Shown here in pieces: positions 5,513 to 10,523 of a DNA stretch of 27,733 bases; the stretch's first letter is position 1, and every line of letters starts with the position of its first letter. Origin of the DNA: a virus; IMG/VR virus record IMGVR_UViG_3300035187_002298, positions 1 to 27,733 of that record. One strand, 5' to 3'. The translations under genes were made by a program, and so were the position numbers. The notes beneath the pieces were generated by a model. The model was not told the DNA's origin. It made no database searches and saw only the letters and a program-made list of their open reading frames with translations.

Positions 5513-5540
5513 ATTATATCATCTAATTCTGGAAGTTCCA
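5513..5540 (-). promoter_or_regulatory. Early promoter for the nuclease gene: extended -10 TGA-TATAAT
   Basis: On the minus strand TG (5521-5520), A, and TATAAT (5518-5513) form a perfect extended -10. The TGA is also the stop codon of the 454-aa gene. A poor -35 (TGGAAC, 5540-5535) sits at the 16-bp spacing seen in the other early promoters of this window. The inferred start is about 2 nt before the GTG. Confidence 0.55.
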
Positions 5541-6883
5541 GAATATTTTCCTAAAATTCTAGCTAGTTGTAACCCAATATCTTTGCCAGTCAAATCTCCA
5601 GCCAATCCAGCTCCTGGGAATTTAGGAATTTCATTTTCTAATGATGTTCCACTTTTTGGACTTGAGGAAGAGGGGGGAGGAGGTGGTGGTGGAGATGATG
5701 GTGCTGGTGATGGTTGAGGTACAGGTAGAGGTAGAGGTGGTGCAACTGGTGGAGTTACAGGTGGAGTTACAGGTGGAGTTACAGGTGGAGTTACAGGTGG
5801 TGCAACTGGTGGAGTTACAGGTGGTGCAACTGGTGGAGTTACAGGTGGAGTTACAGGTGGTGCAACTGGTGGTGCAACTGGTGGTGCAACTGGTGGTGCA
5901 ACTGGTGGTGCAACTGGTGGAGTTACAGGTGGTGCAACTGGTGGTGCAACTGGTGGAGTTACAGGTGGTGCAACTGGTGGTGCCACTGGTGGTCTAAATG
6001 GTAATTTTGGTGGATTTACAGGTGGTGCAACTGGTGGAGTTACAGGTGGTGTAACTGGTGGAGTTGCAGGTGGTTCCAAATCTGGTAACTTTGGAGGTGT
6101 ACGCGGAACTGGTGGTGGTTGAAATGGAAGTGGTGCCGGAGGTTCTGGCTCCGGTGGACGAATAGGAATAGGATCACCAGGATCTACGTTTGGTTTTGGA
6201 CCCGGAACATCTGGTTCTTTTGGAAATGGAAGTGGTGCGGGAGGTTCTACATCTGGCTGCGGTGGTCTTGGTCCAGGTTGTGGTGTTTTGGGTGCAGGAA
6301 CTGGCACAGCAGCTCCTTCGGTTCCCGTTGCTCTCAATGCAGGGGACTCTTCTCTACTAATTTTACCAACAACAGATTCTGTACCATCTAATTCTTTTGT
6401 AGCACGAGCAGCATCATCAACTTTAGTAATTCCAATTTTCTCTAATCTTGCTAAGGCACCTTCAACTCGCTTAGCATCTGCAACAGTACCTACAAAGGGT
6501 ATGGATGCTAGTAATGCTAATTTGGCTCCATCAGCATCTCCTTGTGCAGCATATAAAGCTGCATCCAATAAAGATGCCGCATCACCATATCCGGGAACAG
6601 TGCTAGCCAAAGCTGCACCAGAATGGAATGTTTCTGGGTCTGTAAATAAATCTTTAAAATAATTTTTTGCAAATTCTGTTGGATTTGCTGCAATACCTTC
6701 GCCAGCCTCTTTGGCCATGTCTATAACTTCAGCACCACCTTCACCAACTTGTGATGCATAATCCTTTACTGCATCCCATGCTTTTTCCCACCATTTTTTA
6801 TCTTCAAATAATAAATCAAATTCATTTTGCATGAAATATCTGTATTCAAGCAAACTATAAAGAATGGGATTCTTTTGTTTCAT
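5519..6883 (-). CDS. 454-aa protein with Gly/Ala-rich module and long proline-rich repeat, candidate internal virion protein
   Basis: Visible regions are as follows. An N-terminal leader contains L-L-E (11-13) and L-F-E (25-27). An amphipathic helical region spans about 28-90. A Gly/Ala-rich module at about 96-136 has the phrases VPGYGDAASLLDAAL, AAQGDADGA and IPFVGTVAD. A proline-rich stretch from about 193 to 414 is built largely of four-residue APPV and TPPV repeats. A short conserved-looking tail follows (PKFPGAGLAGDLTG). The Gly/Ala module recurs in the 287-aa protein at 9540-10403 and resembles hydrophobic segments of toxin-delivery proteins (resemblance only). The Pro repeat should form an extended polyproline-II rod. 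It is translationally coupled to the 104-aa gene by an ATGA overlap. No enzymatic domain is visible. Confidence 0.85.
   Translation of the reverse strand: MKQKNPILYSLLEYRYFMQNEFDLLFEDKKWWEKAWDAVKDYASQVGEGGAEVIDMAKEAGEGIAANPTEFAKNYFKDLFTDPETFHSGAALASTVPGYGDAASLLDAALYAAQGDADGAKLALLASIPFVGTVADAKRVEGALARLEKIGITKVDDAARATKELDGTESVVGKISREESPALRATGTEGAAVPVPAPKTPQPGPRPPQPDVEPPAPLPFPKEPDVPGPKPNVDPGDPIPIRPPEPEPPAPLPFQPPPVPRTPPKLPDLEPPATPPVTPPVTPPVAPPVNPPKLPFRPPVAPPVAPPVTPPVAPPVAPPVTPPVAPPVAPPVAPPVAPPVAPPVTPPVTPPVAPPVTPPVAPPVTPPVTPPVTPPVTPPVAPPLPLPVPQPSPAPSSPPPPPPPSSSSPKSGTSLENEIPKFPGAGLAGDLTGKDIGLQLARILGKYSGTSRIR
5736..6072. repeat. Tandem 12-bp repeat encoding the APPV/TPPV polyproline array
   Basis: Two interchangeable 12-bp units, GGTGGTGCAACT and GGTGGAGTTACA on the plus strand, are repeated about 28 times with a few variants. 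Read on the minus strand they encode alternating APPV and TPPV steps. Units are almost identical at DNA level, so copy number is likely to vary by slippage or recombination. Confidence 0.9.
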
Positions 6884-8568: not shown

Positions 8569-8871
8569 ATGAAATATACTGTTCAAAAAATTGTAATGGA
8601 AAATTCAAATGTGTATAATTTTCTTTATGAAAATGAACTTCTTGGACATTTGATTGACACAGAAGATTCTAGGGTTTTAGTCCAAACTTCTGATATTTCA
8701 ATAATTCCTATTGTTGAATCTTTTAATTTTTCTGGTAATTGTTGGATTGTAGAAAACGAAGAATATAAATTAATTACTCTGAACCCAAGTCCAGAATTAG
8801 AACCACTATATGAATTTAAAGTGGTTAATTTTTCTGACAATCTTTTAATTGAATCAGAGATTTCAGAATAA
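8569..8871 (+). CDS. Hypothetical acidic protein (100 aa)
   Basis: The ATG at 8569 lies 1 nt after the stop of the 155-aa gene, so translational re-initiation is likely. A longer in-frame reading would overlap that gene extensively and is not preferred. The protein is acidic and beta-rich (VLVQTSDISIIPIVESF, CWIVENEEYKLITL) with no recognisable motif. Its 3' end overlaps the RuvC-like gene on the opposite strand by 47 bp. Nothing in the sequence assigns a function. Confidence 0.7.
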   Translation: MKYTVQKIVMENSNVYNFLYENELLGHLIDTEDSRVLVQTSDISIIPIVESFNFSGNCWIVENEEYKLITLNPSPELEPLYEFKVVNFSDNLLIESEISE

Positions 8872-9385
8872 AATAACTGTCAACAATATCGGTAACAGGA
8901 TTTGTTAATTTTTCCTGTCCAAATTTATGCATTAAATTTATACCAGTTTCAGCAGTAAATGCTTCAAACATTGCTTGTTTATCTGCATTTCCTTTTCCTG
9001 TTGCAATTTTCTTGGCTTTAGATGGTTCTATGATTGTGAGAGGTATAGCGGCTTTATAGAGCTTGTGCTTTAGGATACCCATATTCTCCGCCAAGTTGAA
9101 TACTCGGCCTTTGGAGCCAAATGAATAGCCCTCTATGGCAACCTCAGATGAACCTATGCAAAGATTCATAGCCCAATCAGATATCGTATCAAACCTGTCA
9201 ACGTCTTGAATATATTCTTGAAAACTTTCACCAGTAATATTTGGTAAAATTTTATCTGCAAATTTTTTAGTGTTTGTTAGATAATAAAAAAAACAATTTT
9301 CAAATTTAAATTCTCTACGTTCATCATAAAGACAAATGCAGGGGCAGGTTATAGAGTAGTCAATACCGATTAACATATGGAACAT
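8825..9385 (-). CDS. RuvC-like Holliday junction resolvase
   Basis: An RNase H-fold signature of RuvC-type enzymes is visible. LIGIDYS supplies D9, VAIEGYSFG supplies E85 followed by a helical NLAENMGILKHKL, PSKAKKIATGKGNADK is the Lys-rich DNA-contact segment, and DIVDSYFIL supplies D166 and D169. At 186 aa it is close to the usual RuvC size. Resolution of branched phage DNA before packaging is the expected role. T4 itself uses gp49, an unrelated enzyme, so this is a functional substitute. The ATG at 9385 is followed by another at 9376; either could be used. Upstream lies a structured leader or separate small RNA. Confidence 0.88.
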   Translation of the reverse strand: MFHMLIGIDYSITCPCICLYDERREFKFENCFFYYLTNTKKFADKILPNITGESFQEYIQDVDRFDTISDWAMNLCIGSSEVAIEGYSFGSKGRVFNLAENMGILKHKLYKAAIPLTIIEPSKAKKIATGKGNADKQAMFEAFTAETGINLMHKFGQEKLTNPVTDIVDSYFILKSLIQLKDCQKN

Positions 9386-9400
9386 ATATATCTATACCTT

Positions 9401-9487
9401 GGTCAGAAGTGGTGGTTCCTTAGCAGTCTGATGAAATATACTTCGACCATTCCAAAAGGACTGCGTGGAATACCCACCACCTCTGCC
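9401..9487 (-). ncRNA. Candidate structured RNA (~87 nt) with nested pseudoknot, or structured leader of the resolvase gene
   Basis: On the minus strand a 12-bp outer helix pairs 9485-9474 with 9415-9404 (CAGAGGTGGTGG with CCACCACTTCTG, one G-U). Inside, 9471-9466 (ATTCCA) pairs with 9454-9449 (TGGAAT). The loop bases 9464-9459 (GCAGTC) pair with 9428-9423 (GACTGC), making an H-type pseudoknot with a 1-nt first loop and a 20-nt last loop. On the plus strand the G-U becomes an A-C mismatch, which favours the minus-strand RNA. A late box CATAAATA at 9500-9493 predicts transcription from G9487, just two bases before the outer helix. It matches no RNA family I can recall. It may be an independent sRNA or a regulatory leader. 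Confidence 0.55.
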
Positions 9488-9492
9488 TAAAA

Positions 9493-9500
9493 TATTTATG
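9493..9500 (-). promoter_or_regulatory. Late promoter CATAAATA upstream of the structured RNA
   Basis: The box matches TATAAATA at 7 of 8 positions on the minus strand. Unlike the other late boxes here, no start codon follows within 20 nt. Instead the predicted start (G9487) lies at the base of a long helix. It follows directly on a terminator-like hairpin. Confidence 0.6.
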
Positions 9501-9501
9501 T

Positions 9502-9532
9502 AAAAATTCCACTTTTATGGGGTGAAATTTTT
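9502..9532 (-). terminator. Terminator-like hairpin after the 287-aa gene
   Basis: On the minus strand AAAAATTTCAC pairs with GTGGAATTTTT (11 bp, one T-G wobble) around a 9-nt loop. The distal Ts are part of the stem, so it is AT-rich and modest in strength. It lies 8 bp after the stop of the 287-aa gene and could work on either strand. Confidence 0.5.
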
Positions 9533-9539
9533 TATTTTA

Positions 9540-10403
9540 TTATTGAATACCCTGACCAAGACTTCTAAGATTTTGTCTTGCCATAGTACTTTTTTGTTTT
9601 TTCTTTTCTTCTTCTGGTGTATCTCTATCAGCAAGATATGTTTGAATTCCCATAGAAGCAGCTGTACCAACACCCGGAATATAATCTGCTAGTTCAGATG
9701 CTGCCTCCAATCCAGCTCCCACATAATCTCCTGCTTGGGCTCTTTGTGTCATGGCTGCTACAGAAGCTGCGGTTCCGATGACTGGTAGAGCTTTTAGAAC
9801 AGCTTTTCCAACGCCTTTGCCTATACTTAGACGTGCCTGCCATCTAGATGCATCCGATTGTGGTGGGTTTGTTATTATATTTGGATCACCTTTTAGATTT
9901 TTTTGTTGTATTGATGATGTACTTGGATTTATTTCACCGGGCGCAGGATATGTCGTAGACAAATCTTGATCCAATACAGGTTTTGTATAATCTATTACAG
10001 GTTTTTCATTTGGAGTTTTACCGAATATTACATCAACAGGTTCTCGGGATGTATATAATTGTCTGTTAAAAGTATCTGGAGGAGCCGGATCCTTTCTTAG
10101 TTTAACAAGACTATCATTATATTTCGGGTCATCTATATCCAATGGACTATAGTAATAACTTGATGCCCGTGTAGCCATTTCCCTTTCTTCTGGATTCATA
10201 AATTTAGTTCGTATATATTCTTCCATGTTTCCCCCAAAAGAGGTACTTAAAATATGTGGATCGATGTCATTTTTATGTTTTTGATATAATTCTTTATAAA
10301 TTTTATCAACCTCATCTTTATAATTTTTAGACCATTGGCCTATGTTAAAGGAACCTGTTTTAGCATCGTTTTCTAGAATTAAATATTGTTTAAATCTGAG
10401 CAT
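9540..10403 (-). CDS. 287-aa late protein with capsid-targeting-like leader and Gly/Ala-rich module
   Basis: The N-terminus MLRFKQYLILE follows the pattern of T4 internal-protein leaders (compare T4 IPIII, MKTYQEFIAE) and ends in I-L-E. Residues 12-190 are polar with several Tyr and Pro and no recognised fold. Residues about 207-248 hold a Gly/Ala-rich module (LPVIGTAASVAAMTQ, AQAGDYVGAGLEAAS, IPGVGTAAS) matching the module in the 454-aa protein. The C-terminus is charged (DTPEEEKKKQK). A perfect TATAAATA lies 5 bp upstream. The combination suggests a packaged, possibly ejected protein with a membrane-active segment. This is inference; no homologue is recognised. Confidence 0.82.
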   Translation of the reverse strand: MLRFKQYLILENDAKTGSFNIGQWSKNYKDEVDKIYKELYQKHKNDIDPHILSTSFGGNMEEYIRTKFMNPEEREMATRASSYYYSPLDIDDPKYNDSLVKLRKDPAPPDTFNRQLYTSREPVDVIFGKTPNEKPVIDYTKPVLDQDLSTTYPAPGEINPSTSSIQQKNLKGDPNIITNPPQSDASRWQARLSIGKGVGKAVLKALPVIGTAASVAAMTQRAQAGDYVGAGLEAASELADYIPGVGTAASMGIQTYLADRDTPEEEKKKQKSTMARQNLRSLGQGIQ

Positions 10404-10408
10404 ACCAA

Positions 10409-10416
10409 TATTTATA
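10409..10416 (-). promoter_or_regulatory. Perfect late promoter TATAAATA for the 287-aa gene
   Basis: This is an exact T4 late box on the minus strand, 5 nt (TTGGT) before the ATG at 10403. The predicted start coincides with the A of the ATG. It abuts the hairpin at 10417-10442 with no gap. Confidence 0.75.
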
Positions 10417-10442
10417 AACCCCCAGGATTGCTCCTAGGGGTT
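10417..10442 (-). terminator. Hairpin after tRNA-Asn, likely terminator of the replication unit
   Basis: On the minus strand AACCCCTAGGA pairs with TCCTGGGGGTT (11 bp, one T-G wobble) around GCAA, a GNRA tetraloop. It starts 8 bp after the tRNA 3' base. Only a short, interrupted T tract follows, so termination may be partial. It may also act as an RNA processing or stability element. Confidence 0.6.
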
Positions 10443-10450
10443 ATTTTATG

Positions 10451-10523
10451 CTCCTCCGACTGGATTTGAACCAGTGACCCGAGAGTTAACAGCTCTCTGC
10501 TCTACCAGCTGAGCTACAGAGGA
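10451..10523 (-). tRNA. tRNA-Asn (anticodon GUU)
   Basis: A full cloverleaf of 73 nt is present. The acceptor pairs TCCTCTG with CGGAGGA, the D stem GCTC with GAGC, and the anticodon stem GAGAG with CTCTC around CTGTTAA (anticodon GTT). The variable loop is GGGTC. The T stem pairs ACTGG with CCAGT around TTCAAAT, and the discriminator is G. CCA is not encoded (CA then T follows), so host or phage enzymes must add it. It lies 7 bp downstream of the RNR stop and is probably processed from that transcript. It may support translation of AT-rich, Asn-rich phage genes. Confidence 0.96.

Follow-up and report, generated by a model that had tools for sequence, protein, structure and literature searches.

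In the uncultured T4-like phages considered here, one locus carries either a predicted small structured RNA with a late promoter of its own, or a trypsin-like protease gene whose coding sequence contains the same conserved structure. What is new here is the RNA family itself and the alternation of a free-standing gene with a protease-embedded element. We regard the case as evenly balanced that the element represents a new family of phage structured RNA that is expressed late and acts in trans, as judged from sequence comparison. Slightly below that, and more tentatively, we place the fuller proposal that the RNA is the selected unit of the locus: a late structured RNA in one copy, carried as its own gene or dual-coded in a secreted protease, and swapped as equivalent alleles.

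The window, by which we mean the whole stretch of DNA analyzed, comprises 27,733 nt of the IMG/VR record IMGVR_UViG_3300035187_002298, with the element on the minus strand at approximately 9401-9500. A similarity search with the resolvase encoded downstream of the element returned 77 related IMG/VR loci, in about half of which the element lies upstream of the resolvase gene; further loci were obtained from motif scans. The DNA polymerase is approximately 41% identical to cyanophage gp43, and by such sequence comparison the source phages are a separate T4-like clade, known here from metagenome contigs alone. The order of the locus is ThyX, class II RNR, tRNA-Asn, optional genes, the RNA and the next gene. 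Elsewhere in the window (5519-6883, minus strand) a 454-aa protein with a long PPVAPPVTPPV repeat run is encoded. The landmarks and the predicted RNA are as follows.

10450-10523, minus strand: tRNA-Asn, the customary landmark upstream of the locus
9401-9487, minus strand: predicted small structured RNA, stand-alone form, with predicted 5' end at G9487 and the helix region extending to approximately 9401-9404
8825-9385, minus strand: RuvC-like Holliday junction resolvase (phrog_159), the downstream neighbor here and in most, not all, relatives

Consensus fold of the element

The 87-nt minus-strand sequence of the window folds with a free energy of -39.6 kcal/mol (z = -5.5), and none of 200 shuffled sequences folded equally well. 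We prepared two alignments, A2 with 27 distinct elements and A3 with 46 distinct sequences in which the RNA class and the protease class were aligned jointly and fitted to the fold model. The consensus of the 46 distinct relatives is a single nested, irregular hairpin with conserved internal loops. From its base, the 12-bp helix P1 is followed by a short bulge, P2 and a small internal loop (AC/UNA); beyond these lie P3, a second internal loop (CCUUUU/AUCG) and P4, which is capped by a terminal loop with the consensus UC[G/U]AAG(UA). The bases common to both classes are those of the UCGAAGUA loop, parts of CCUUUUGG and CAUC, and AGGA. In the window, the segments are located as listed.

9474-9485, minus strand: P1 5' strand, paired in 99% of cells, with 9 of its pairs doubly changed in A3
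9404-9415, minus strand: P1 3' strand, pairs with 9474-9485
9467-9470, minus strand: P2 5' strand UUCC, 97.8% paired, nearly invariant
9416-9419, minus strand: P2 3' strand GGAA, pairs with 9467-9470
9459-9464, minus strand: P3 5' strand GCAGUC, the strand first described as forming a pseudoknot, here nested, with double changes at 4 of 5 counted pairs
9423-9428, minus strand: P3 3' strand GACUGC, pairs with 9459-9464
9450-9454, minus strand: P4 5' strand UGGAA, of the conserved hairpin P4
9432-9436, minus strand: P4 3' strand UUUCA, pairs with 9450-9454
9439-9446, minus strand: conserved terminal loop, which reads UCGAAGUA or, in some relatives, UCUAAGUA, and is common to the protease-embedded form

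The support from the alignments is consistent. In A2, 97.2% of cells were paired, with 60 double-sided changes compared to 19 in shuffles, and the controls in which the pairing was slid dropped to 28-58% paired. In A3, the paired fraction of the pair cells was likewise 97.2%, with 157 cells changed on both sides compared to 42.3 in shuffles. The double changes fell at 16 pairs, and the covariation score was 0.405 versus 0.188 in shuffles, with every slid control far below. None of 500 shuffles of A3 matched either the paired fraction or the covariation score, although in A2 and A3 alike the aligned sequences share kinship, such that the shuffle counts are not readable as probabilities. The compensatory base changes favor one fold, as they do in a structured non-coding RNA family.

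A preliminary description of this DNA had proposed a pseudoknot locked inside a 12-bp helix. Its outer stem (9485-9474 with 9415-9404) is present, with 12 pairs inclusive of one G-U. The helix between 9464-9459 and 9428-9423, which was to make the pseudoknot, is also present, and is the nested P3; its sixth pair is broken in 20 of the 27 elements. The inner hairpin of that proposal (9471-9466 with 9454-9449) can be drawn in the window, but among the relatives only 82% of its cells are paired and its second pair forms in 7 of 27. Its place is taken by P4 (9454-9450 with 9436-9432) and the loop at 9446-9439. A pairing of 9470-9467 with 9419-9416, which had been bracketed as an alternative, turned out to be the conserved P2. 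Because P2 and P4 are conserved instead of the inner hairpin, the third helix is nested and a pseudoknot is unsupported. We rejected the pseudoknot fold, as its inner hairpin is poorly kept and is excluded by the conserved P2 and P4; covariation across relatives, the check suggested at the outset, bore out the nested P1-P4 arrangement and lent the pseudoknot no backing.

A late box just ahead of P1

The T4 late promoter is an 8-bp TATAAATA-like box that lies about one helical turn upstream of the start (PMC2988020). The signals that flank the element in the window are given below.

9502-9530, minus strand: terminator-like hairpin with a T-run that immediately precedes the late box; it is imperfect here and strong in most relatives
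9493-9500, minus strand: T4-type late promoter box CATAAATA, 5 nt ahead of the first G of the RNA, G9487
9389-9396, minus strand: second late box TATAGATA (TATAAATA in most relatives), located after the RNA and before the next gene

The box CATAAATA at 9500-9493 had been recognized in the preliminary description, and we find it five nt before G9487. In 44 of the 48 contexts that allowed the measurement, 5 nt separate the late box from the first G of P1, and in the remaining 4 the gap is 6 nt. The geometry of the T4 box, together with this constant spacing, predicts that the RNA starts on the first base of P1; in box type and spacing the sequence is that of a T4-type late transcription unit. 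It had further been said that every other late box in the window is followed closely by a gene start, which is essentially right: in a census of late-like boxes, the credible ones lay 0-24 nt from an ORF start, and that of the element lay 107 nt from the next one. In 35 of 50 contexts, the free energy of the hairpin upstream of the box lies below -7 kcal/mol, and 45 of 50 have the second late box, 5 nt past P1.

No terminator was found 3' of the RNA in the contexts examined, and a discrete small RNA would thus require processing. In the window and in a few relatives the second late box is degenerate (TATAGATA in the window), so in the window the RNA may also be the leader of the resolvase mRNA. 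Separately, two contigs (L262, 3633-3737, and L263, 6133-6237) harbor a truncated second copy, consisting of the late box and the 5' half of the element up to P4, which runs straight into the next gene's terminator and late box. This partial copy looks like a product of local recombination.

These features also bear on the main rival to a trans-acting RNA, namely a cis-acting 5' element of the late mRNA. P1 at the 5' end would block 5'-end-dependent decay or tune translation of the next gene, and the element would work within the protease message as well. The location of P1 at the predicted +1 in the 44 of 48 contexts, the lack of a terminator between RNA and next gene, and the degenerate second box of the window and few relatives are all in keeping with it. 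On the other hand, the next gene has a late box of its own in the 45 of 50 contexts, the genes downstream are unrelated, the structure of the protease form sits approximately 100 nt into the message, and a plain stabilizer would need neither the conserved internal loops nor the conserved 8-nt loop. We consider the cis-acting element unlikely, while allowing it a real share of the probability.

The element within a protease gene

Several resolvase relatives that lack the RNA gene still matched our model R1, and the matches lay inside the coding sequence of a protease. The protease gene occupies the site of the RNA gene, between tRNA-Asn and resolvase, and encodes a 265-aa trypsin-like protein (PF00089, 2e-15) with a signal-peptide-like N-terminus. 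Every protease relative that was sampled has the element in its coding sequence, with R1 scores of 30-46 bits (E of about 1e-5 to 1e-10). The matches include loci found by protein similarity only, which the motif search had missed. Folding of the protease form gave z values between -5.9 and -8.1, and its P1 comprises 11-15 bp. The sequence of P1 differs widely between the RNA and protease classes in A3, with the pairing kept. The structure of the protease form is about 100 nt inside the message and not at its 5' end. The possibility that these matches are chance hits of the motif was rejected, since non-motif loci (L041, L049 and the L183 group) score equally; the independent 11-15-bp P1 helix in the protease loci also counters it.

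Where a protease residue is invariant, its codon is invariant as well in 17 of 24 cases within the element, compared to 30 of 107 elsewhere (p = 2.4e-4). That synonymous codons are frozen inside the element points to selection on the nucleic acid, and this indicates, at the level of the sequence comparison, that the protease element is under such selection besides the selection on the protein. A search of INPHARED for the phage protease returned no relative. In L142 (3092-3889) and its relatives L175-L196, the phage-encoded trypsin-like protease has a late box of its own and a signal sequence that resembles those of lipoproteins.

Exchange of the two forms at the locus

In a quick tree of RNR, 39 RNA-class and 22 protease-class rows are intermixed, with about nine state changes, at least three of which are forced by well-supported branches. 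The tree shows the states exchanged repeatedly, and either form may be the ancestral one. One pair of contigs, the first of the protease class and the second of the RNA class, shows 97.4% identity through RNR, diverges at the cassette, and regains 76% identity in the resolvase. The stretch from tRNA-Asn to resolvase is a site of cassette exchange (window 9401-10523; L157, L118, L237 and L239).

The protease was sought in 12 RNA-class records (33-136 kb) and is encoded in none of them. The two forms occur together in no checked record, and no searched record has two full-length elements, there being one full copy per record. Two related lineages have neither form at the locus, and the RNA is thus not indispensable. 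In L275, L279, L274 and L280, tRNA-Asn and the element are both missing, and RNR leads directly into the resolvase gene, which has a separate late box. In L266, L269 and L270, tRNA-Asn is followed by an adenylosuccinate-synthetase-like gene, named from the sequence, without the element.

A different account of the two forms starts from the protease: the fold would have arisen in the protease message as a device that times translation or decay, and the stand-alone RNA would be a relic or decoy after loss of the protease. The occurrence of the element in every sampled protease relative, its frozen codons, and the alternation of both forms at one site agree with this account. However, RNA-class genomes without the protease keep the structure by many compensatory changes and keep a precisely placed promoter, and a relic would decay. 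We find a regulator of the protease gene improbable.

Strand and coding potential

On the minus strand, 61 cells of the alignment are G-U, compared to 12 that are A-C. Neither a DNA cruciform nor selection on the other strand would yield such a bias. We also looked for a conserved protein frame in 34 distinct stand-alone elements; none was open in all of them, the best being open in 16 of 34, and a hidden small protein was rejected on this ground. These observations argue for an element that acts as RNA read from the minus strand and is not translated, to the extent that sequence can tell.

The excess of G-U over A-C disfavors the inverted repeat in DNA that had been entertained in the preliminary description. 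An inverted repeat, a replication origin or a recombination hot spot, with the helices as a cruciform, would fit a single copy per genome at a site of cassette exchange. Set against the 61 to 12 count on the predicted RNA strand, the conservation of the loops, and a promoter placed exactly at the start of the helix, a DNA-level feature appears very unlikely.

The genes that follow

Most often, the RuvC-like resolvase comes next. In other contigs the place is taken by a gene for an NFAxFIPKT-type protein or for a 744-aa protein, and the resolvase is further on. Resolvase relatives without the element are common, and there the late box is directly upstream of the resolvase gene. Because the next genes differ and resolvases occur without the element, the RNA is untied from the resolvase; the constant association expected of a cis-regulatory leader was not found. 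In T4, hairpins control some early versus late translation. This precedent, and the fact that the resolvase is the commonest next gene, would favor the earlier suggestion of a resolvase leader or riboswitch, which we nonetheless find scarcely credible, as many resolvase relatives lack the element, the element precedes other, unrelated genes and sits inside the protease gene, and the resolvase gene is preceded by a late box of its own. By its sequence context, the element is its own transcription unit and not a resolvase riboswitch.

Comparison with databases and genomes

Rfam returned no family at the gathering threshold for the elements of the window, L121 or L237, and below the threshold gave implausible chance matches only. 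The manA and wcaG motifs, HEARO, self-cleaving ribozymes and riboswitches were rejected for want of an Rfam match. The plus strand has the hammerhead core CTGATGA without a matching stem II, GAAA partner or Rfam match, and this candidate was discarded. So was a guide RNA of the OMEGA/HEARO type, as there is no variable guide and the linkage to RuvC and HNH genes breaks. BLAST of the RNA and the protease against INPHARED gave one short chance match and nothing more. Among 84,980 bacterial and archaeal genomes the motif matched at 11 places and the full-length model at none, and a host copy or host mimic was rejected on this basis. The whole records of more distant T4-like contigs (resolvase 42-53% identical) had no element. 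By these comparisons, the element is without a match to any described family in sequence or structure.

Discussion

The reading as a phage small RNA with its own late promoter, first among the options of the preliminary description, is well supported at the level of sequence, with the exception of the pseudoknot. It rests on the constant spacing from box to helix, the compensatory changes, the polarity of the G-U pairs, the lack of a conserved frame, the second box and the variable neighbors. In the mechanism that we propose, gp55-type late transcription would make the RNA, starting on the first base of P1, and host RNases would trim it just 3' of P1 in an AU-rich stretch. Acting in trans, the RNA would most likely use its shape to bind or occupy a protein or a ribonucleoprotein, and not pair as an antisense RNA; the conserved internal loops and the UCGAAGUA loop would be the contact sites. 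Indirect pointers to action in trans are the promoter of its own, neighbors that vary on either side, and the alternative gene in which the element can reside. In the protease allele, the RNA would be carried in, or released from, the protease mRNA, and either allele would keep the function of the RNA. A shaped, protein-binding RNA is favored because the conserved bases sit in internal loops along an irregular helix and in the terminal loop. It is favored over an antisense RNA because the loop complement, UACUUCGA, occurs in the window only in the element itself; pairing of the loop with a phage message was rejected for that reason.

Late-made structured RNAs of lytic T4-type phages are, to our knowledge, rarely described. 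The T4 tRNA cluster encodes the small stable RNAs C and D, which resemble the present element as small RNAs of a T4-type phage located beside tRNA genes. Their synthesis and processing belong to the early tRNA transcript, whereas the element is preceded by a late box and is separated from the upstream tRNA-Asn by a terminator. RNAs C and D are set apart here by description, their sequences having been compared only via Rfam and INPHARED, with no match. The OMEGA/HEARO RNAs beside IscB (RuvC plus HNH) are similar in that a structured RNA lies near a RuvC-like gene, with an HNH gene nearby. The element differs from them in that it lacks a variable guide, is not linked to a nuclease gene and does not match HEARO in Rfam; the 186-aa resolvase, for its part, is a protein by itself.

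The manA and wcaG motifs are structured RNAs of T4-like cyanophages (Weinberg et al. 2010, PMC2864571), and are alike in being conserved structured RNAs of T4-like phages known mostly from metagenomes (PMC2864571). They are candidate leaders of metabolic genes, in contrast to the element, which has its own late promoter and a form within a gene. The small RNAs that bacteria derive from coding sequences or UTRs are a further parallel, as functional structured RNAs that overlap a protein gene and have stand-alone relatives; phage small RNAs are reviewed in PMC12197685. What differs in the present case is that a single phage locus has a coding and a stand-alone allele of a predicted RNA.

That the RNA gene and the protease alternate at a single site suggests a benefit from the RNA as such late in infection. 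The two states are a natural experiment that separates the function of the RNA from that of any neighboring gene, and the use of the RNA to the phage becomes a directly testable question. A secreted or periplasmic late phage protease would itself deserve study. If our proposal is true, the locus would be a concrete instance in which a protein gene gave rise to an RNA gene or took one in; the RNA gene would lie hidden in a protein gene, or have escaped from one.
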